Positions 1,551 to 23,326 of a stretch of DNA of 23,326 nt are shown here, one piece after another (within the stretch, counting starts at the first letter, position 1; each line of letters starts with the position of its first letter). The notes under the pieces are model-generated. The model was given only the letters and a program-made list of their open reading frames with translations, did not search any database and was not told where the DNA came from. The translations under genes and the position numbers were made by a program. The stretch covers positions 1 to 23,326 of the IMG/VR virus record IMGVR_UViG_3300038417_000596. One strand, 5' to 3'. Source of the stretch: a virus.

Positions 1551-1753
1551 TGGACGAAGAGACCGGATGCCGAGATAAAATTGAGGGGGGACACCCCTCC
1601 GAAAACGAAAACGGCGAGAGGAGTGTCCCCGCCACGATATTTATCCAGAAGCGTGAGAAGGGAGAGATCGAGGTAAGTCCTGTCCTCACCCGGCCTGTGA
1701 TCACTGCCGTCGTGACGTGCTGCCTTGATTGCGGAGCAAGGATGCCAAAATGA
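1550..1753 (+). CDS. Small ORF bridging to the portal gene, contains a palindromic repeat (67 aa)
   Basis: The function is unknown. The start chosen is the ATG that overlaps the preceding stop (TGATG); an in-frame ATG at 1538 is an alternative. The stop overlaps the portal start as ATGA, an arrangement typical of translational coupling. About a quarter of the product (EGGHPSENENGERSVPA) is encoded by an interspersed palindromic repeat at 1585-1633, so that part is unlikely to be functional protein. The C-terminal end carries a CCLDC cysteine cluster. It may be a real small gene, or simply an open frame through a spacer that contains a repeat. Confidence 0.35.
   Translation: MDEETGCRDKIEGGHPSENENGERSVPATIFIQKREKGEIEVSPVLTRPVITAVVTCCLDCGARMPK
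1585..1633 (+). repeat. Interspersed palindromic repeat, copy 1
   Basis: This is an imperfect hairpin: bases 1587-1599 pair with 1618-1630 (12 of 13 pairs, one A-C mismatch) around an 18-base loop. The core is GGGGACACCCCTCC, matched by GAGGAGTGTCCCC. The same element recurs at 2765-2808, at 17158-17205 and, decayed, at 17116-17150. The flank ATTGAG before the G-run is also found beside copy 3 on the opposite strand, so the repeat unit extends a little beyond the stem. It behaves like a REP/MITE-type host repeat. Confidence 0.8.
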
Positions 1754-4149
1754 CCGACGACACTGAAAAGAAAGGCAAAAAACCCAAGGATGAGCACGCT
1801 TTCCTGGAGCTTGCCACCAAGCGCCTGAAGCGCGAGATCGACGCGGATGACCACAACCGGCAGGCGGCGATAGAAGACCTGAAGTTCTTGAACGGCGACC
1901 AGTGGGATCCGGCCGAAGAGCAGCGCAGACGCTTACGCGGCCGGCCATGCCTGAAGACGAACGAGCTGCCCAAGTACGTGAACCAGGTCGTGGGCGACAT
2001 GCGCCACAACAGGGCGCGCATCAAGGTGAGGCCTGTTGATTCTGCGGGCGACGTGAACATTGCGAAGATCAGGAGCGGGGTGATCGCAAACATAGAGTAT
2101 CTGTCGAACGCAGAGGCGATCTACGATTACGCGGGCGAGATGGCGACTTCCTGCGGGCTGGGCGCGTGGCGCGTGCTGACCAGGTATACGGAGGAGAACC
2201 CGTTTGTGCAGGAGATATACCTGGAGCGCATCAAGAACCCCTTTCTTGTCTACATGGACAGCAATGCAAAGTCGGAAGTGGGCGCCGATTCGAAATATGG
2301 CTTCTGCTTGGAGAAGGTGACCCGGGAGGAGTTCGAGGAGCGGTACCCGGATGAAGAGCCGCCCGGCGATGCTCTGAAGGTGGGGAAGGGCGTCGCGAAC
2401 GAAGTCTGGTTCGAGAATGATGCCTTCTTTATCGCCGACTATTACGTCATCGAGAGCGAGAAGACCGACATGGTGCTCACCGAGGACGGGCAGACCTGGA
2501 AGAAGGAAGAGTTCGAAGAGAAGCTCGCGGAATGGATAGAGGCGGAGAAAGCTAAGATACTATTTCCTGCACCGCCCGCGCTGCCGGCAGGACCAATGGG
2601 AGCGATGGGCGGGCAACCGATGCCTCAGCAACCTCCGAACCCTTTATCGAATATAACGCCTATGATGGGAAAACCCCCCATGCCGGGGCAGCCAGGCACT
2701 CCGGGAGCAGTCCCTATCCCTGCGCCCGTGCCTTCGCCTGCCCCGGCCCCCTTTGAAAATGGAAGGGGGACACTCCTCTCGCCTAGCGCTGTCGGAGGGG
2801 TATCCCCCCAACCGGAGTTGCCCCCCTTGCCCCCTCCATCGCTGACCATCGCCAAGGAGCGGGAGGTCGAGTACCCCAAAGTGCGCCACTACGCGATTTG
2901 CGCAGACCGAATCCTGGACGGGCCAAACGATGTCCCCGGCAAATATATCCCCCTTGTCGTGGTGAAAGGTCCTGAGCGCGTGATCGAGGGGAAGACCTAC
3001 GTGCGGAGCCTCATCAGGGACGCCAAGGACCCGCAGCGGCTGCTGAACTTCTGGGTAACGGACGCGGCTGAGATCGTGGACATGATTCCTAAAGCGCCGT
3101 GGATCGGGACGGCAAAGCAGTTCGAAGGCTACGAGCAGGACTATGCTGCGGCCAACGCAGAGAATTTCCCCTTCCTGAAGTACAATATCGACCAGGGCGC
3201 GCCTACTCCACAGCGCACGAACCCCCCCAATCCGCCCGTCGCCGTATTCGAGCAGATCGGCCAGGCCAAACAGGCGATCAAGGACACTATCGGCATGTTC
3301 GGCTCGGACGTGGGCGACAAAGGGCCGGAGCTCTCCGGTAAGGCCATCCTCCAGCGGCAGAAACCGGGCGACGTGGGGACATTCGCCTTCATCGACAACT
3401 TGAGCCGCGCCATCGCCCACTGTGGCAGGGTGATCAACGAGATGATCCCCGAGGTTTACGACACACAGCGGGATATCCGCATCAGGAACGTGGACGACAC
3501 GGAGACCTTTGTACCCGTCAACACGACCGCAGGCGCGGCCCTCGACGCGGTGATGAGGAACCCGGAGCAGTATCAGGGCATGGACAAAAACAAGCTCATC
3601 CGCCTCGCCGCAAAGAACGGCAGGAACGCGCGGTATAACGACCTCACCGCGGGAAAGTACGATGTGGTGGTGACGACAGGCCCGAGCTACAGCACGCAGA
3701 GGCAAGAGGCAGCGCAATCCCTGGAGCGGCTCGTCGCGGCCTATCCGCCGATTATGAAGATCGCGGGCGACTTGGTTTACAAGTTTCAGGATTTCTTAGG
3801 GGCCGAGGAGATCGCGGAGCGTGTTGAGAAGACCATGCCCCCGACCCTTGTGCCTCCCAAGGAAGGGGAGCCGCGCATTCAGCCGCCTCCGCCCCCCCTT
3901 GTGCTCGTGAAGATGGAAGAGCTGAAGGTGAAGCAGATGCACCTGGAGGTAGAGAAGGAGAAGCTACTGGTGCAAAAGCTGAAGGCGCTGAAAGAGGCTC
4001 AGGAGACCAGCGGGGAAGTGAGGAAGATGCTGCTGGGACTGCTGGGGGAGATATTCAAGGGCGGCATGGCAGGAGCGCCGGTAGGAGCGCCCATGCGGCC
4101 GGCAATGCCAGTGCCGCCGCCTAACTTTGGTTTGGGAGTGATGGAGTGA
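1750..4149 (+). CDS. Portal protein, P22 gp1-like
   Basis: The portal is the twelve-fold ring at the packaging vertex through which DNA enters and leaves. The N-terminal part matches the P22 portal family: a helical lead-in, LKFLNGDQWDP, the NELPKYVNQVVGDMRHNR stretch, then the stem and wing. Residues near 720-760 are a charged helix rich in K, E and L, fitting the C-terminal barrel. At about 799 residues it exceeds the P22 portal (725). The excess is a proline-rich linker at about residues 271-367, part of which (about 339-353) is encoded by a palindromic repeat. The ATG at 1750 is preferred over an in-frame TTG at 1729 because AAGGA lies seven bases upstream and the ATG overlaps the previous stop. 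The stop overlaps the next gene as GTGA. Confidence 0.9.
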   Translation: MTDDTEKKGKKPKDEHAFLELATKRLKREIDADDHNRQAAIEDLKFLNGDQWDPAEEQRRRLRGRPCLKTNELPKYVNQVVGDMRHNRARIKVRPVDSAGDVNIAKIRSGVIANIEYLSNAEAIYDYAGEMATSCGLGAWRVLTRYTEENPFVQEIYLERIKNPFLVYMDSNAKSEVGADSKYGFCLEKVTREEFEERYPDEEPPGDALKVGKGVANEVWFENDAFFIADYYVIESEKTDMVLTEDGQTWKKEEFEEKLAEWIEAEKAKILFPAPPALPAGPMGAMGGQPMPQQPPNPLSNITPMMGKPPMPGQPGTPGAVPIPAPVPSPAPAPFENGRGTLLSPSAVGGVSPQPELPPLPPPSLTIAKEREVEYPKVRHYAICADRILDGPNDVPGKYIPLVVVKGPERVIEGKTYVRSLIRDAKDPQRLLNFWVTDAAEIVDMIPKAPWIGTAKQFEGYEQDYAAANAENFPFLKYNIDQGAPTPQRTNPPNPPVAVFEQIGQAKQAIKDTIGMFGSDVGDKGPELSGKAILQRQKPGDVGTFAFIDNLSRAIAHCGRVINEMIPEVYDTQRDIRIRNVDDTETFVPVNTTAGAALDAVMRNPEQYQGMDKNKLIRLAAKNGRNARYNDLTAGKYDVVVTTGPSYSTQRQEAAQSLERLVAAYPPIMKIAGDLVYKFQDFLGAEEIAERVEKTMPPTLVPPKEGEPRIQPPPPPLVLVKMEELKVKQMHLEVEKEKLLVQKLKALKEAQETSGEVRKMLLGLLGEIFKGGMAGAPVGAPMRPAMPVPPPNFGLGVME
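2765..2808 (-). repeat. Interspersed palindromic repeat, copy 2, inside the portal gene
   Basis: Bases 2765-2779 pair with 2794-2808 around a 14-base loop, with one C-A mismatch and G-T wobbles. Read on the minus strand it aligns closely to copy 1 (GGGGGGATACCCCTCCGA, then GGCGAGAGGAGTGTCCCC), so it is inverted relative to copy 1. It is read in frame on the plus strand as GTLLSPSAVGGVSPQ within the proline-rich portal linker. Confidence 0.75.
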
Positions 4150-5393
4150 GTTTAAGTAAGCTTAAATGCATTTGTATTGATCTCGGACTCTTTACTGAGA
4201 ATGCTGTCAGAATTGCCAAAGATGTAGCGGAATTCTGGTATTATATCCCATGTGAAGAGGCATTTCCTGAACCTTTCAAATCCAAGATTGGTAAAGGTCT
4301 TGAGGGCATAGAACGCATCCGCCACTGGGGTAAATACGTTGATAAGGCCGATTTTGTTGTTTTCTTTGATAGTCAGTTCGGAGATTGGATGGAAAACTGG
4401 AAAGAAAGATATGCTGTCGCTGGGCCTGGTCTTGCCGAGAAGCTGGAGCTGGACCGCTGGCACGGCCGTATGAGACAGAAAGAGAATGGGCTGCCTGTCC
4501 AGGAAACCGAACGTGTGATAGGTGTGACAAACTTGCGAAAGTTTACCAAAGATCACAAAAATTATTGGATCAAGGTAGACAACGAGTGGAGAGGAATCTG
4601 CGAGAGTTTTGAGACCAAAGATCAACATTATGCTGAGTCGAGAATTGACTGGATTACTTACAAGGCCAGTCCCTTCAAAGAAGACATTATTTTCATCTGT
4701 GAGGAAAGGCTTCCCGGTGTGGAGCCGGGGGTCGACGGGATCACCTGGGAAGGAGAGCTTGTGTTCCCCACGACGGTAGGCTATGAGCGTCGGGGCTCAG
4801 GCATCATCACCCGGGTTTACCAGACTGAGAAGGAACTGCCCGAGGCGGTGAAATGGATCGATAGCGGGCTTGCGCCTGAGTTCAAGAAGCACAAGACGCG
4901 CTTTTTCTACTCCGCCGAATTCAAGATCGGTCCGGACAAGATACCCTATCTCATCGATCCCACCATTCGGCTCGCAGCACCCGGCGTGGCGGCCATCCAG
5001 ACTGAGTTGATCGAGAATTATTCGGAGGTAGTGTACGGCATGGCGACTGGCGTAAAAGTAGCGCCGGTGATGGAACATAAGTACGCGGCAGCTGTGAGTA
5101 TGGAGAGCAGCGAGGCCGCAAAGACCTTCGTGAATATCAGCTTCCCCAAGTCGCTGCGCCAATGGGTCAAACTCCGCATGGCGGTAAAAAAGGGAAATGA
5201 CTACTACTCTGTTCCGCCTTTCGATTCCTTGGGAACTGTTATCGGCTTTGGCGACACGGTGAAAGAGGCGGTGGACCTGGTAAAGGAGCGGGTGAAGCAG
5301 GTAGAAGCCATTTCGATCAATACTGACCTGGGCGGGCTGGATCAGATCGTTGCAGATATTCAGACCGGCAAGACGGTTGAGATAAATTTCTAA
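4146..5393 (+). CDS. ATP-grasp superfamily ligase-like protein, copy 1
   Basis: The protein resembles ATP-grasp enzymes such as GAR synthetase (PurD) and carbamoyl-phosphate synthase, which join a carboxylate to a nucleophile through an acyl-phosphate. Visible landmarks are: a pre-ATP-grasp start (IDLGLFTENA); GLAEKLELDRWHGRMRQ at 95-111, then GLPVQET, equivalent to the family's lead-in helix; WIKVD at 141-145 with the ATP-contacting lysine; FICEE at 183-187; GVDGITWEGE at 195-204; and YLIDPTIRLAAPG at 268-280 where PurD has ExN. The last motif has D and T in place of the usual metal-binding E and N, so activity is not assured. The GTG start overlaps the portal stop (GTGA), with GGGAG seven bases upstream. 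Bases 4150-4700 are near 40% GC and the rest above 60%. A 415-residue paralogue lies at 22079-23326. The substrate is unknown. Confidence 0.75.
   Translation: MSLSKLKCICIDLGLFTENAVRIAKDVAEFWYYIPCEEAFPEPFKSKIGKGLEGIERIRHWGKYVDKADFVVFFDSQFGDWMENWKERYAVAGPGLAEKLELDRWHGRMRQKENGLPVQETERVIGVTNLRKFTKDHKNYWIKVDNEWRGICESFETKDQHYAESRIDWITYKASPFKEDIIFICEERLPGVEPGVDGITWEGELVFPTTVGYERRGSGIITRVYQTEKELPEAVKWIDSGLAPEFKKHKTRFFYSAEFKIGPDKIPYLIDPTIRLAAPGVAAIQTELIENYSEVVYGMATGVKVAPVMEHKYAAAVSMESSEAAKTFVNISFPKSLRQWVKLRMAVKKGNDYYSVPPFDSLGTVIGFGDTVKEAVDLVKERVKQVEAISINTDLGGLDQIVADIQTGKTVEINF
4836..4930 (+). repeat. Near-identical DNA patch shared with the second ATP-grasp gene
   Basis: Bases 4836-4859 and 4866-4930 are identical to 22769-22792 and 22799-22863, including third codon positions; only the six bases between the blocks differ. 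A separate 29-base identical block lies at 4452-4480 and 22388-22416. The two proteins are otherwise only about 60% identical by eye, so these patches stand out. Confidence 0.85.
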
Positions 5394-5402
5394 GGAGGCG
5401 AT

Positions 5403-6377
5403 ATGGCAGTAGGACAGGAACCGATAGGCGCACCCCCGGCCGAACCGATAGAGCCGGATGAGACTATGGAGCAGTACGTCGAGAGACGCGAGCACCCCCC
5501 GGCGCCGGAGACGCCCCCTGTAGCCCCTGCACCCTCGGAACCGTCTGTACCTCCAGTAGCTCCCGTACCGTCCGTACCTGCCACACCTGAGCCCGGAGCG
5601 GAGCCCCCTGCTGCACTGGAGTTGCCGAAAGAGGAACCGTCAGGCGTGGAGAAACGCATCTCCCAACTTGTCGCCAGACAAAGGGAGGCTGAGCGGCGGG
5701 AAGCCGAGAGAACGGAAGAGGCCGCATACTGGCGGGCAGTGGCTGAAGGTCGGATAAAGCCGGCCGCGCCCGTGCAACCTCCGCCACAGCCGCCTCAGTC
5801 CGGAGAGCCCGTTGAGCCGTTGCTGGATAACTTCGAGTCGGCGGCAGACTTCGAGGCCGCCCGCACTAAATATATCGTCGCAAGGGCGGGCTGGGACCTC
5901 AGACAAGAGCAGCAAGCACAGCGAGCGCGTGAGTATGCGACAGATCTGGACCGCAAGCACAACGAGAGGATGTTAGCCGCCATAACGGTCGACCCGACCC
6001 TTGACGAGGTGAGCAAGGACCCCACGCTCCCTATCAGCCAGGTCATGAGCCTGGCGATCAAAGAGAGCGACCAGGGACCGGCTCTCGTGAGATACCTTGC
6101 GAATAATAGAAAGGAAGCGGACCGGATCGCCCAGTTGCATCCTCTCATGGCAGCGCGTGAGATGGGCCGGATTGAGGGAACGATTATAGAAGCGGCCAGA
6201 GCCGCCAAAGCAGCGCCGCCTGCACCTCCAGTTGCTCCCGTGACCGTCTCTCAGGCCCCGGAACCGGTGCGATCCGTAGGCGGAACGAAGGGCGCCGCCC
6301 CGAGCGATGATGACGATAAGCTGTCCATTGAGGAAGTTATCAGGAAAAGGAACATTGCACAGTACGGAAAACCATAA
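5403..6377 (+). CDS. Scaffolding protein
   Basis: The scaffold co-assembles with coat protein into the procapsid and leaves before or during packaging. It lies between portal and coat, as in P22, and its 324 residues are close to P22 gp8 (303). The first 80 residues are proline-, alanine- and glutamate-rich and probably disordered. Residues about 80-125 (KRISQLVARQREAERREAER) form a charged helix likely to be coiled coil. A second long helical region covers about 140-270. The C-terminus ends in an acidic run followed by LSIEEVIRKRN, a short charged helix like the coat-binding end of many scaffolds. The ATG follows a perfect AGGAGG placed right after the previous stop. The assignment rests on position and composition more than on sequence motifs. 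Confidence 0.8.
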   Translation: MAVGQEPIGAPPAEPIEPDETMEQYVERREHPPAPETPPVAPAPSEPSVPPVAPVPSVPATPEPGAEPPAALELPKEEPSGVEKRISQLVARQREAERREAERTEEAAYWRAVAEGRIKPAAPVQPPPQPPQSGEPVEPLLDNFESAADFEAARTKYIVARAGWDLRQEQQAQRAREYATDLDRKHNERMLAAITVDPTLDEVSKDPTLPISQVMSLAIKESDQGPALVRYLANNRKEADRIAQLHPLMAAREMGRIEGTIIEAARAAKAAPPAPPVAPVTVSQAPEPVRSVGGTKGAAPSDDDDKLSIEEVIRKRNIAQYGKP

Positions 6378-6393
6378 TGGGGAGGTGATCACG

Positions 6394-6537
6394 GTGAAGA
6401 AGGAAAAGAAGGAAACGAAGAAGAAGGGTCATGTGCCGGAGAAGAAGTCCTTCGGCAGCAAGACCGAGTATGCCGCGCATTCCACGGCGAAGTTAGGTCC
6501 GTCCGGAGGCAGCAAGAAAGGTCCTGTGGGCCGGTAG
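6394..6537 (+). CDS. Small lysine-rich protein (47 aa)
   Basis: This is a very basic peptide starting KKEKKETKKKGHVPEKK and ending in a glycine/serine-rich tail (GPSGGSKKGPVGR). The start is the GTG at 6394, chosen because an exceptionally strong ribosome site (GGGGAGGTGATC) lies eight bases before it; an in-frame GTG at 6385 falls inside that site. It sits between scaffold and coat, and two further small lysine-rich proteins occur at 11378 and 11564. A virion-internal DNA- or RNA-binding peptide is conceivable, but no family is recognised. Confidence 0.6.
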   Translation: MKKEKKETKKKGHVPEKKSFGSKTEYAAHSTAKLGPSGGSKKGPVGR

Positions 6538-6711
6538 CAAATCGTCAGCAATGACGCCCGACGTATAGCGGACCCGTCATCCGCATGTAGTAACTCAGGC
6601 ATAGCCTGCCACCCGTAAGGGGAATTCGGGAACCCCATTGGCAATGGATACCGAATAGAAGGGCGCGGAACCCTTGAGAGTTGAACCTTTAAACTCAAGG
6701 AGTAACAGGCT
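6538..6711 (+). promoter_or_regulatory. Structured untranslated leader of the coat gene
   Basis: This non-coding stretch is dense in potential RNA stems. H1 is 6543-6547 with 6552-6556, closed by a GCAA tetraloop. H2 is 6568-6572 with 6580-6584. H3 is 6596-6600 with 6604-6608. H4 is 6624-6629 with 6651-6656, enclosing a five-pair hairpin at 6635-6647. A GGGG/CCCC pairing (6619-6622 with 6633-6636) would compete with H4 or form a pseudoknot. The last stems bracket the coat ribosome site (separate entry). It is unusually long for an operon whose other genes overlap, which suggests control of coat expression or an RNA signal. No known RNA family is recognised, and no clear sigma-70 promoter is seen. 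Confidence 0.55.
6659..6705 (+). promoter_or_regulatory. Possible two-state hairpin over the coat Shine-Dalgarno
   Basis: The coat Shine-Dalgarno AAGGAG (6697-6702) lies nine bases before the ATG. Its first four bases fall in a seven-pair stem, CCTTGAG (6672-6678) with CTCAAGG (6694-6700), which would hide it. The same upstream strand can instead pair with AAGGG (6659-6663) through CCCTT (6671-6675) around a seven-base loop, which would expose it. The two pairings exclude each other. Stem lengths are read from the sequence; switching is inference. Confidence 0.45.
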
Positions 6712-7975
6712 ATGGCAAATAAATTACTCACCCCGACGCAGGTGTTGCGGGAGGCCCTCCGGGTGCTCCACAACAACCTTGTGTTTGTCAAAAACGTCAA
6801 CAAGCAGTACAGCTCTGAATTCGCCATCTCGGGCGCAAAGGTCGGCTCCACGATCAACGTGAGGCTGCCGAACCAGTACTACGTGGCAAAAACAACGGTC
6901 CTCCAAGCCCAGAACACGAACGAGCAGACGGTGCCCGTGAGCCTCACCACGAACTATCAGGTGGGTCTCAATTTCACCCAGGCAGAGCTCGCTTTCCCTG
7001 GATGACTTCTCGAAGCGCGTCCTTACCCCCGCTATGGCCCGCCTTGCGTCTCAGATAGACCAGGATGGTCTCGGTCAGGCGGCGAACATCTACAACCAGG
7101 TGGGCACGCCGGGCACCACGCCGGGGACGACAGGCAGCGCGCCGTTTGCAAACAACATTCTGAATTTTAACGCGCCGGATATCTTCCTGAACGCGGGCAT
7201 GATGATGGATAATATGGCAGCCCCGAGAGACGAGAACAGGCGCGTTGTCATCAATCCCGCTGCAATGGCCACCTCCGTAGCCAGCCTCAAGGGCCTCTTC
7301 GAGGACTCCGGGGAAATCGCCAAGCAATACAGGAAGGGCGTCATGGGCACGGCCCTCGGTTTCGAGTTCGCCATGGACCAGAACGTCAACCTGCTAACCA
7401 CGGGGTCAAGGTCAGTATCAGCTACCCCCTCCACGACTACGGCAAGCCAGACCGGCGCCACTCTAAACACCACAGGGTGGACGGCGAGCCAGACCGGGAT
7501 CCTGCTGGCAGGTGAGGTCTTCACCATCGCCGGGGTATATGGCGTCAACCCGGAAAACCAGTCCAACATCGGCTATCTCCAGAATTTTGTTGTCACGGCG
7601 AACTGCAACTCGGATGGGAACGGGAACATCACCATTCCTATCTCGCCCTCGATCATCCCTGTCGGCGCCCAGGTGCCAAACGGGACGGTCACGGCTGCCC
7701 CCGCGGGCGGTGCGCAGTTGACCATGATGAGTGGGGCGGCAAGCACTTCCTTTCCGTTGAATCTTGCCTATCACCATGACGCCTTTACCCTTGCCACGGC
7801 TGACCTGGAGATGCCGAAGGGCGTCGATTTTGCGGCCCGTGAGACCTATGACGGCATCAGCATGCTGATCGTCAGGGCCTATGACATTAACAACGCACAG
7901 TTCCCGTGCAGGATCGACGTACTTGCGGGCTGGGCAACGCTCCGGGCGCAATTAGCGTGCCGGATCGCTGGTTAA
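6712..7975 (+). CDS. Major coat protein, P22 gp5-like, interrupted by a frameshift
   Basis: The product forms the icosahedral shell. The first part (97 codons, 6712-7005) opens MANKLLTPTQVLREALRVL and ends prematurely at TGA 7003-7005. The continuation, shifted +1, starts near 6992 with LSLDDFSKRVLTPAMARLA and ends at 7975 with the family-typical ISMLIVRAYDINNAQFPCRIDVLAG. Joined, they give about 420 residues, close to P22 coat (430). Further family signatures are RVVINPAAMATSVASLKGLF and a GFEFAMDQN segment. The break lies between GAGCTC and CTGGATGAC (6985-7006): one extra base or two missing bases explain it. No standard slippery site is visible, so an assembly error or real indel is likelier than recoding. 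The ribosome site is AAGGAG at 6697-6702. Confidence 0.88.
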
Positions 7976-17115: not shown

Positions 17116-17150
17116 GGGGGACACACCTCCGGAAAGAGAGGAATGTTAAG
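17116..17150 (+). repeat. Interspersed palindromic repeat, copy 4 (decayed)
   Basis: GGGGGACACACCTCC (17116-17130) is followed by a shortened loop and GAGAGGAATGTT (17136-17147), where intact copies have GAGAGGAGTGTCCCC. Only short pairings survive (CCTC 17126-17129 with GAGG 17138-17141). It lies directly beside copy 3, in the same orientation by loop sequence. Confidence 0.55.
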
Positions 17151-17153
17151 AAT

Positions 17154-17208
17154 GGGGGGGGGGACACTCCTCCGAAAACCAAAAGAGCGAGAGGGGTGTC
17201 CCCCCTCA
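17154..17208 (+). repeat. Interspersed palindromic repeat, copy 3, with G10 tract
   Basis: Bases 17158-17172 pair with 17191-17205 over 15 positions (one G-T wobble, no mismatch) around an 18-base loop. The loop sequence (CCGAAAACCAAAAGAGCGA) is like that of copy 1. The left arm begins within ten consecutive G residues (17154-17163), which could slip in replication or sequencing. The stem stands between the tailspike stop and the gp4-like ribosome site (AGGAG 17214-17218), so it may also act as a transcript barrier. Confidence 0.85.
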
Positions 17209-17225
17209 ATATTAGGAGCATTTTC

Positions 17226-21978: not shown

Positions 21979-22082
21979 GTTTTATCGGCGGGAATTTATC
22001 CATCGCCAAAAAAGCACGCAAGCAATGGCGAGGAAAAACGTGTAAACGTACATCATATCTTTATTCTAGGACGGAACCATGA
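21975..22082 (+). CDS. Possible small basic ORF (35 aa, TTG start)
   Basis: The TTG overlaps the preceding stop (TTGA), and GGAGG lies seven bases before it at 21963-21967, an ideal spacing. Its stop overlaps the ATG of the next gene (ATGA). The product is strongly basic (KKARKQWRGKTCKRTS). The perfect fit between two coupled genes is the only support. Otherwise this is a 100-base spacer with no convincing promoter or terminator. Confidence 0.35.
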   Translation: MSFIGGNLSIAKKARKQWRGKTCKRTSYLYSRTEP

Positions 22083-23326
22083 ACTTGTCAAATAAAAAAG
22101 CTTTGGTTTACGATCTTGGCCTTTTCACCGAGAACGCTCTCCGGCTGCTCCGCGACTGCGCCTCGGTCAAATACTTCGTGCCGTGGGCCGACGCCTTCCC
22201 CGAGCCTTTCAAGGCGAAGATCGGTGAGGGTCTTGACGGCATGGAGCGGGTCGGCAACTTTGAGGAGCACCTGGACGAGGCGGACTTCATCTTTGTCCCC
22301 GATACGCTCTGTGCGGGACTCGTAGAATGGCTGAAAAAACACGAGTACCCCGTGGCCGGTGCGGGTGCTGCCGAAAAGTTGGAGCTTGACCGCTGGCACG
22401 GCCGTATGAGACAGAAGGAAAATGGTTTGCCCGTCCAGGAAACGCACCGCGTCAAAGGCGTGACGGCCCTGCACAAGTTCATCGGGGAGAACAAAAACTA
22501 TTTCATCAAAATCGACTTGTTCCGGGGCATTGAGGAGAGCTTTAAGCATATCGATGAGCACCAGACGGAATGGACCGTCGACAGGATCGCTTATAAGCTC
22601 GGCCCATACAAAGAGGATGTGGTTTTCATCTGCGAGGAGCTGCTCGAAGGGGTGGAGCCGGGGATCGACGCCATCACCTGGGAGGGGGAACTGATCTTCC
22701 CGGCGGCTTGCGGGTACGAGGGGAAAGGCTCAGGCGTCATCGAGCGCGTCTACAGGACACAAGCCGACCTGCCCGAGGCGGTGAAATGGATCAACGAAGG
22801 GCTTGCGCCTGAGTTCAAGAAGCACAAGACGCGCTTTTTCTACTCCGCCGAATTCAAGATCGGCAAAGACCGCACACCCTATCTCATCGATCCCACCATC
22901 CGGCTCGCGGCACCCGGGGTGGCGGCTATCCAGACAGAGCTTTTCGAGAACTATGCGGAGGTGATCTACGGCATGGCCACGGCTGAGAAGGTTGCGCCCA
23001 TCATCAGTCACAAATACGCAGCCGCGTTGGCGCTGGAGTCACAGGAGGCCCGCGAAACGTGGGTCAACGTCGGGTTCCCGAAGGAACTGCGCCGGTGGCT
23101 GAAACTCCGCATGGCGGTCCGCAAGGGCGAGGACTACTATTGCGTGCCGGGCTTCGAGTCCGTCGGCACGGTCATCGGTTTCGGCGACACGGTCAGGGAG
23201 GCGGTCGACCTGGTGAAAGCGCGCGCTCAGCAGGTAAAGGGGAAGAGACTCACGATGGACGAAGCCGGCCTGGACGTCCTCGCAGACGAGATCAATAAAG
23301 GAAAACAGTACGGGATAAATTTCTAG
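22079..23326 (+). CDS. ATP-grasp superfamily ligase-like protein, copy 2
   Basis: This paralogue of the 4146-5393 product has the same length (415 residues) and about 60% identity by eye, with every landmark retained: YDLGLFTENA, EKLELDRWHGRMRQ, YFIKID, FICEE, GIDAITWEGE and YLIDPTIRLAAPG (again D/T where PurD-type enzymes have E/N). Because both copies keep the substitution, it is a family trait rather than decay. Base composition is uniformly GC-rich, unlike copy 1. The ATG has AGGACGG upstream and overlaps a small ORF stop. It comes after the ejection genes, so the two paralogues bracket nearly the whole structural cluster. The substrate is unknown; the window ends at its stop. Confidence 0.75.
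   Translation: MNLSNKKALVYDLGLFTENALRLLRDCASVKYFVPWADAFPEPFKAKIGEGLDGMERVGNFEEHLDEADFIFVPDTLCAGLVEWLKKHEYPVAGAGAAEKLELDRWHGRMRQKENGLPVQETHRVKGVTALHKFIGENKNYFIKIDLFRGIEESFKHIDEHQTEWTVDRIAYKLGPYKEDVVFICEELLEGVEPGIDAITWEGELIFPAACGYEGKGSGVIERVYRTQADLPEAVKWINEGLAPEFKKHKTRFFYSAEFKIGKDRTPYLIDPTIRLAAPGVAAIQTELFENYAEVIYGMATAEKVAPIISHKYAAALALESQEARETWVNVGFPKELRRWLKLRMAVRKGEDYYCVPGFESVGTVIGFGDTVREAVDLVKARAQQVKGKRLTMDEAGLDVLADEINKGKQYGINF
22769..22863 (+). repeat. Near-identical DNA patch shared with the first ATP-grasp gene
   Basis: This is the partner of 4836-4930: a 24-base and a 65-base block identical in both genes, separated by six differing bases. It encodes LPEAVKW and GLAPEFKKHKTRFFYSAEFK, within the C-terminal part of the ATP-grasp fold. 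Confidence 0.85.

Follow-up and report, generated by a model that had tools for sequence, protein, structure and literature searches.

The leader that precedes the P22-type coat gene of this virus record can form two alternative structures according to sequence and computed energy, a short hairpin (H0) that leaves the start of the coat gene free and a long helix that hides it. We give an even chance to the explanation that the leader controls translation of the coat gene in cis by means of the competition between H0 and the start-hiding helix, with a candidate pseudoknot (PK1) as its probable recognition part. Because the folds of the leader can hide the start signal of the coat gene, it probably sets the timing or the amount of coat protein.

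A gene-free leader in the head operon

The stretch of DNA analysed here spans a 23,326-base virus record and is referred to as the window; its forward genes are arranged in the order terminase, portal, a 415-aa ORF, scaffold, a small lysine-rich ORF, leader and coat. The scaffold gene (5403–6377, + strand) belongs to PHROG 8865; the small lysine-rich ORF that follows it (6394–6537, + strand), taken from the ORF list, has a relative in contig L036 with 26 of 43 residues identical. The coat gene (6712–7975, + strand, listed as ORFs 6712–7005 and 7034–7975) is assigned to PHROG 283 and the Pfam family P22_CoatProtein, and its Shine-Dalgarno sequence AAGGAG (6697–6702, + strand) lies 9 nt 5' of the ATG. 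The coat frame of the window is broken near 7000 by a frameshift that is also present in the identical contig L034/L064, and it is intact in L035, L036, L039 and other relatives. The closest relative in a bacterial genome was found in a bog Syntrophaceae MAG (76% identity in the coat part). The window also contains paralogous 415-aa ORFs at 4146–5393 and 22079–23326 (71–75% DNA identity in two blocks), which frame most of it; the first copy gave no PHROG or Pfam match.

In agreement with the preliminary description, no forward gene was found from the stop of ORF 6394–6537 to the ATG at 6712, leaving 174 gene-free bases before the coat gene. A coding role of the minus-strand ORF 6429–6857 was rejected, as this ORF had no Pfam match and one-base length differences between the window and L036 (at 6549 and 6703) disrupt its frames. 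ARAGORN detected no tRNA or tmRNA gene in the window. A separate small RNA, which had been proposed as one of four possible functions of the leader, would have its own promoter and terminator; neither a sigma-70-type promoter, the only type covered by the scan, nor a terminator-like site on the + strand was present in 6200–7100.

Individual stems and folding energy of the leader

The stems previously drawn in the leader were all found in the sequence: the GCAA-tetraloop hairpin (6543–6556, + strand), the six-pair stem 6624–6629 × 6651–6656 enclosing a hairpin (6635–6639 × 6643–6647), and the pairing of GGGG (6619–6622) with CCCC (6633–6636), which competes with parts of the six-pair-stem region. 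The tetraloop hairpin is not conserved, being replaced by a GCA triloop in L036 and missing in L035. Further downstream, the Shine-Dalgarno sequence can be included in a hairpin of CCUUGAG (6672–6678) and CUCAAGG (6694–6700; 6672–6700, + strand), the stem of which is invariant, and the four substitutions of L036 (6680 and 6687–6689) all fall within its loop. AAGGG (6659–6663) paired with CCCUU (6671–6675; 6659–6675, + strand) is an alternative to this hairpin; it represents an alternative minimum-energy state and does not vary among the three window-group haplotypes.

The leader as a whole did not live up to its earlier characterization as highly structured, giving a z-score of −1.56 for the 174 nt, with 11 of 200 shuffled sequences folding equally well. 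Inclusion of the start codon (6595–6716) gave z-scores of −2.10 (5 of 200 shuffles) and, in a second run, −2.28, an extremeness equalled or exceeded by 15 of 381 windows of the same size in the record. The counterpart of 6595–6716 in L036 reached −3.00, and three of the four leaders of a more distant group (see below) ranged from 0.07 to 1.29 when the ribosome-binding site was left out. Folding energies no better than those of shuffled sequence had been named as grounds for abandoning a functional structure, and the observed energies, taken by themselves, are ordinary and come close to this; the case for the leader therefore has to rest on comparison.

A predicted helix over the coat start and a hairpin competing with it

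The strongest feature of the leader extends past its previously described end at 6711 into the coat gene. The anti-start strand CATAGCCTG (6600–6608, + strand) is a perfect 9-bp complement of the partner strand CAGGCTATG (6706–6714, + strand), which includes the coat start codon (6712–6714) and is the same in all window-group haplotypes; in L036 the helix amounts to 11 pairs counting one G–U. At least 9 pairs over the AUG occurred in 14 of 5000 dinucleotide-shuffled leaders, and none of the 20 other ORF starts of the window that were tested had more than 5. When the start codon was included in the calculation, the predicted fold of both the window and L036 closed on this helix.

The anti-start strand overlaps by five bases with H0, a hairpin of CAGGC (6596–6600) and GCCUG (6604–6608; 6596–6608, + strand), which competes with the long helix and, by computation, leaves the start unpaired when it forms instead. 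Since the 3' strand of H0 is shared with the start-hiding pairing, H0 and the long helix are mutually exclusive. Ensemble energies with H0 or the long helix imposed were, respectively, −53.8 and −53.8 kcal/mol for the window, −49.5 and −53.8 for L036, −48.9 and −52.1 for L092, −51.3 and −53.7 for L091, −59.1 and −62.5 for L025, and −54.9 and −66.3 for L033, the last four being leaders of the distant group. The difference was thus less than 4.5 kcal/mol in five of the six leaders (0, 4.3, 3.2, 2.4 and 3.4; 11.4 in L033). For nascent chains starting from 6538, H0 appeared in the best predicted fold at most lengths before the start region exists, and the long helix prevailed after the start region was made; for chains starting from 6394 the favoured state alternated with length, the fold in longer contexts depending on the chosen ends.

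Counterpart leaders before distantly related coat genes

A wider coat search yielded 80 loci, of which 72 were usable and 8 were excluded as truncated or with insufficient upstream DNA. Two of them (L091 and L092), and likewise L025 and L033, have leaders of about 163 bases at the same place before a coat gene whose product is only ~56% identical to the query coat. Several runs are common to both groups in the same order, namely GACGTA..GCGG..CGTC..CCGC, TCAGGCA..GCCTGCC, CC.GT and a GGGA...GGGA.CC block. As an alignment made by eye is open to wishful reading, separate DNA profiles were built, each from one group alone, and searched against 58 records. With the profile of the distant group, the three contigs of the window group ranked next after its own members, each with its match in the expected position (E = 0.0006, 0.0021 and 0.0056; best E for reversed sequence, 0.06). 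The profile of the window group likewise hit the leaders of the distant group where expected, with E-values of 0.0065 and 0.016, below two other matches, one in L069 inside an ORF, judged to be chance, and one in L008 that is a scaffold-gene copy of PK1. A blastn search with the window leader did not recover the distant group. The sample is small, comprising seven distinct leaders, three of which are nearly identical.

The CAGGC..GCCUG of H0 is found in all seven distinct leaders. The partner of its GCCUG strand differs between the groups: in the window group this strand and the preceding CAUA are complementary to the region of the start codon, whereas in the distant group the strand and the bases following it can pair with the Shine-Dalgarno sequence instead. 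The longest Watson-Crick pairing with the start region is 9 in the window, L035 and L036 alike, and 8, 9, 9 and 6 in L092, L091, L025 and L033, respectively (12 in L033 when one G–U is allowed). For 52 control coat starts, which we selected among the loci with family members and near-duplicates excluded, the best value was 4–7. At least 8 Watson-Crick pairs were present in six of eight leaders, the eighth being that of L149 (only 5; see below), and these leaders therefore have the complementarity beyond chance that is expected of start-hiding leaders. At least 8 pairs spanning the entire start codon were found in none of 68 other coat starts, a set that includes L091 and L092. A cost of at least 11.3 kcal/mol for opening the start was calculated for 6 of the 68, two of which are L091 and L092, showing that a high opening cost is not peculiar to the leader family. 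Among the functions originally suggested (translational control, mRNA stabilization, processing or a small RNA), it is translational control that gained from this comparison, both groups but not the controls being able to pair at least 8 bases with the coat start region.

Possible compensatory changes in a second candidate pseudoknot

The GGGG/CCCC pairing (PK2 stem 1; 6619–6636, + strand) and the six-pair stem of AUUCGG with CCGAAU (PK2 stem 2; 6624–6656, + strand), which occurs in the minimum-energy fold of the window, together have an H-type arrangement, here called PK2 as a candidate pseudoknot. Stem 1 is paired in all five sequences compared, its counterparts being CGGG/CCCG in L092, L091 and L025 and CGAG/CUCG in L033. 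The counterpart of stem 2 is ACUC paired with GAGU in L092, L025 and L033, with the last pair broken in L091. In this hand alignment of five sequences, two of four pairs of stem 1 were changed on both sides and none was broken; for stem 2, also by hand alignment, one of four was changed on both sides and one was broken in L091. A comparable double stem was present in 54–130 of 5000 shuffles.

The complete lack of covarying pairs, which the preliminary description would have taken as evidence against the structure, was not observed. The alignment of the four-member group contained 30 pairs with 98.3% of cells paired, of which 2 were double changes, 27 were invariant and 1 was broken in two sequences, a covariation matched by 29 of 500 shuffles; in the hand alignment between groups, one further pair of PK2 stem 1 and one of PK2 stem 2 were double-changed. 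In the window, the hairpin 6635–6639 × 6643–6647 nested in stem 2 rules out stem 1, so that the window may favour the six-pair stem.

Distribution of the leader and the possibility of a mosaic linker

Four patterns and two coat-protein searches located the leader of the window in only four IMG/VR contigs, representing three haplotypes. The 85 core bases (6595–6679) are identical in all three. Past 6679, the window and L036 differ by the four loop changes of the Shine-Dalgarno hairpin and a linker base at 6703, followed by codon changes. At fourfold-degenerate sites of the neighbouring genes, the two differ in 9 of 45 positions in the N-terminal part of the coat gene, 46 of 154 in its C-terminal part and 44 of 128 in the scaffold gene (20–34%). 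Identity of the leader amid diverged neighbours fits purifying selection; because the contigs are mosaic, a recent exchange of the leader block is a possible alternative cause.

A rather unlikely explanation, although the best placed of those that compete with translational control, extends this alternative to the entire leader, which would be a recombined spacer without regulation. Its 5' part would have been copied from where a scaffold gene begins, recent exchange would account for its identity among contigs, and its pairings would be incidental. This explanation is favoured by the resemblance of 6552–6586 to the scaffold gene 5' end in L039, L007, L031 and L066 (83% over 35 nt), by 21 consecutive bases that L036 and L039 have in common, and by the comparison of the window with L063, in which near 100% identity over 6600–7230 (leader and N-terminal part of coat) drops to about 80% afterwards, suggesting recent exchange. 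Moreover, the same spot is filled by different sequences in other relatives, palindromic and simple repeats included. On the other hand, such a spacer would not be expected to have a counterpart before a coat gene as distant as those described above, to exceed the 52 controls in start-region pairing, to show compensatory changes, or to vary within the window group in a way that avoids stems.

Most relatives of the coat gene lack such a leader, a point against its role in translational control; in most contigs, the coat ATG follows the scaffold stop by 3–90 nt. The scaffold–coat gap of L080/L081 and L038–L041 contains other repeat-like sequences (TTCAATG, AATCAAAA and CGCGAATCGCG types), as if it were collecting insertions. 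REP-like palindromes (GGGGGGACAC.CCTC ... GAG..GTGTCCCC) occur between genes in the window (1576–1643 and 17147–17214) and in L063 (507–558), where the copy is immediately 5' of the leader. A mobile element with CATAGCCTG and CAGGCTATG as terminal inverted repeats was rejected, because four core patterns matched the coat locus alone and no target-site duplication was seen by eye.

Outside these contigs, DNA searches of cultured phages with 6300–7020, 6538–6717 and the L092 leader gave no match, nor did the leader region match plasmid DNA or, in a DNA search, four genomes of the family of the Syntrophaceae MAG. Among genome contigs, the leader core pattern was absent and the coat protein was found at one locus (L066), which lacks the leader. 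Model R1, made from the window leader core with PK1 excluded, found nothing beyond the known contigs among 40 loci, and nothing in 40 further loci (L091 and L092 included) or in 5 records. Of 297 genomes scanned with it, 4 had matches at E ≤ 0.05, with a best value of 0.0023; these were judged to be chance, including L069, where a DNA profile match (E = 4e-5) lies inside a 526-codon ORF. Model R2 gave no match in 247 genomes at E ≤ 0.001.

A candidate pseudoknot shared with other head genes

PK1 (6560–6584, + strand) is a candidate H-type pseudoknot that the preliminary description did not contain. Its stem 1 is formed by GACG (6560–6563) and CGUC (6575–6578; 6560–6578, + strand) and its stem 2 by GCGG (6568–6571) and CCGC (6581–6584; 6568–6584, + strand), and the same core occurs in seven leaders, in three other phage groups and at the 5' ends of several scaffold genes. 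The two crossing stems are present in each copy tabulated. The geometry is sterically tight, with stems of only 4–5 pairs and a third loop of 1–3 nt. The cores show no change, but this is partly because the search pattern fixed the stem letters, and the flanking pairs lack consistent covariation.

A 19-letter PK1 pattern was found in 14 viral contigs, comprising the eight leader contigs and six others in three groups, and in none of 395 genomes. In L149, PK1 follows directly after a scaffold-like ORF and precedes by 101 bases a major head protein of a different family (PHROG 14242). As L149 has PK1 but a start pairing of at most 5 bases, it backs PK1 and not the switch. In L151, L155, L156 and L157, PK1 lies 37 bases 3' of a PHROG 3437 major head protein and 46 bases 5' of the next ORF, and in L154 it lies 40 bases 5' of a PHROG 8865 scaffold gene (at 3595), with a second copy 157 bases further on, inside the gene (3752). 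In L007/L039, L031, L066 and L011, copies with looser loops were found in the early part of the scaffold gene; the scaffold-gene copies encode D-V/A-x-A-D/E-S-S-P/T-A and may be retained for the encoded peptide. When the neighbourhoods of PK1 in L149, L151 and L154 were compared with a phage collection, 5, 24 and 1 records were matched with a best E of 0.2, which was judged to be chance. The gaps of L159–L164, inspected by eye, showed no obvious PK1, and several contained ordinary terminator-like hairpins.

By number alone, three unrelated groups are roughly as many as a collection of this size could yield by chance. By a rough estimate, the sense-direction position beside head genes argues against chance, all 16 distinct sites examined being on the coding strand of head genes in DNA sampled mostly around coat genes. 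We consider it unlikely that PK1 is a portable pseudoknot tag of unrelated tailed phages, which would mark the starts of head genes (coat, scaffold or the gene after coat) for a common factor, such as a capsid-assembly or host protein, and move between positions and phage types.

Less probable again is the explanation that PK1 acts as a DNA site in the head region, either an operator or a promoter of a phage polymerase, the remaining leader being a spacer. Core letters constant in every copy, as in a protein-bound sequence, and the adjacency to head genes in unrelated phages would suit such a site; this constancy, however, owes something to the search pattern, an operator need not keep to the coding strand as the 16 copies do, each record has just 1–2 copies, and the start-region pairing of both groups is left unexplained. 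Least probable is a structure mainly for processing or stabilizing the mRNA so as to raise or protect coat mRNA, for which the location before a gene needed in bulk and the ability of 5'-end pseudoknots and hairpins to block ribonucleases would speak, but which does not predict the start-region pairing seen in both groups and finds no long perfect RNase III-type double strand in the leader itself.

Comparison with known systems

No Rfam 15 family (4227 families) reached its gathering score in the window or in L091, L092, L025 and L033, and when two stretches of leader were scanned at permissive thresholds, each had two weak, unrelated matches. No account of this leader appeared in literature listings, on the basis of which the leader family, a small one, is apparently undescribed.

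In the DNA phages T4/T2, the gene 32 mRNA has a leader pseudoknot involved in the control of translation by a phage protein; the present leader differs from it in sequence, in gene and probably in ligand. The scaffold protein of P22 regulates its own synthesis after transcription. The neighbourhood of a scaffold and a P22-type coat gene is common to P22 and the window, and we know of no defined RNA leader of this type in the P22 autoregulation. A parallel in mechanism is the leader of the MS2 maturation gene, in which, according to a review, the start is hidden at equilibrium by an upstream strand and open in new RNA through a shorter hairpin (PMC6071253). A start-hiding upstream strand and an alternative shorter hairpin are likewise predicted here from sequence. 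Unlike MS2, an RNA phage in which the leader serves a gene whose product is made in few copies, the present leader lies inside an operon of a DNA phage and precedes the coat gene.

A proposed model for control of coat synthesis

Regulation of translation by two exclusive states of the leader could proceed as follows. In nascent RNA, H0 would form first and the coat gene would be translatable; once the start region is made, the long helix would take over, unless ribosomes or a bound factor block it. PK1 would, with less certainty, be the recognition part, and it may serve several phages as a common regulatory tag, given its occurrence at head genes of unrelated groups and at scaffold starts. 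Since PK1 lies near the starts of scaffold genes in relatives, a capsid-assembly protein is proposed as its likeliest ligand, and our guess, which draws on this location and on the biology of P22, is the scaffold protein first.

How much coat and scaffold protein tailed DNA phages make relative to each other, and when, has mostly been described in terms of transcription and gene order. If the explanation given here is true, a leader that hides the coat start, together with a motif near scaffold starts, would make capsid stoichiometry directly accessible at the RNA level. If PK1 is truly common to unrelated phages, head operons in unannotated viral DNA could also be searched for by this new mark.
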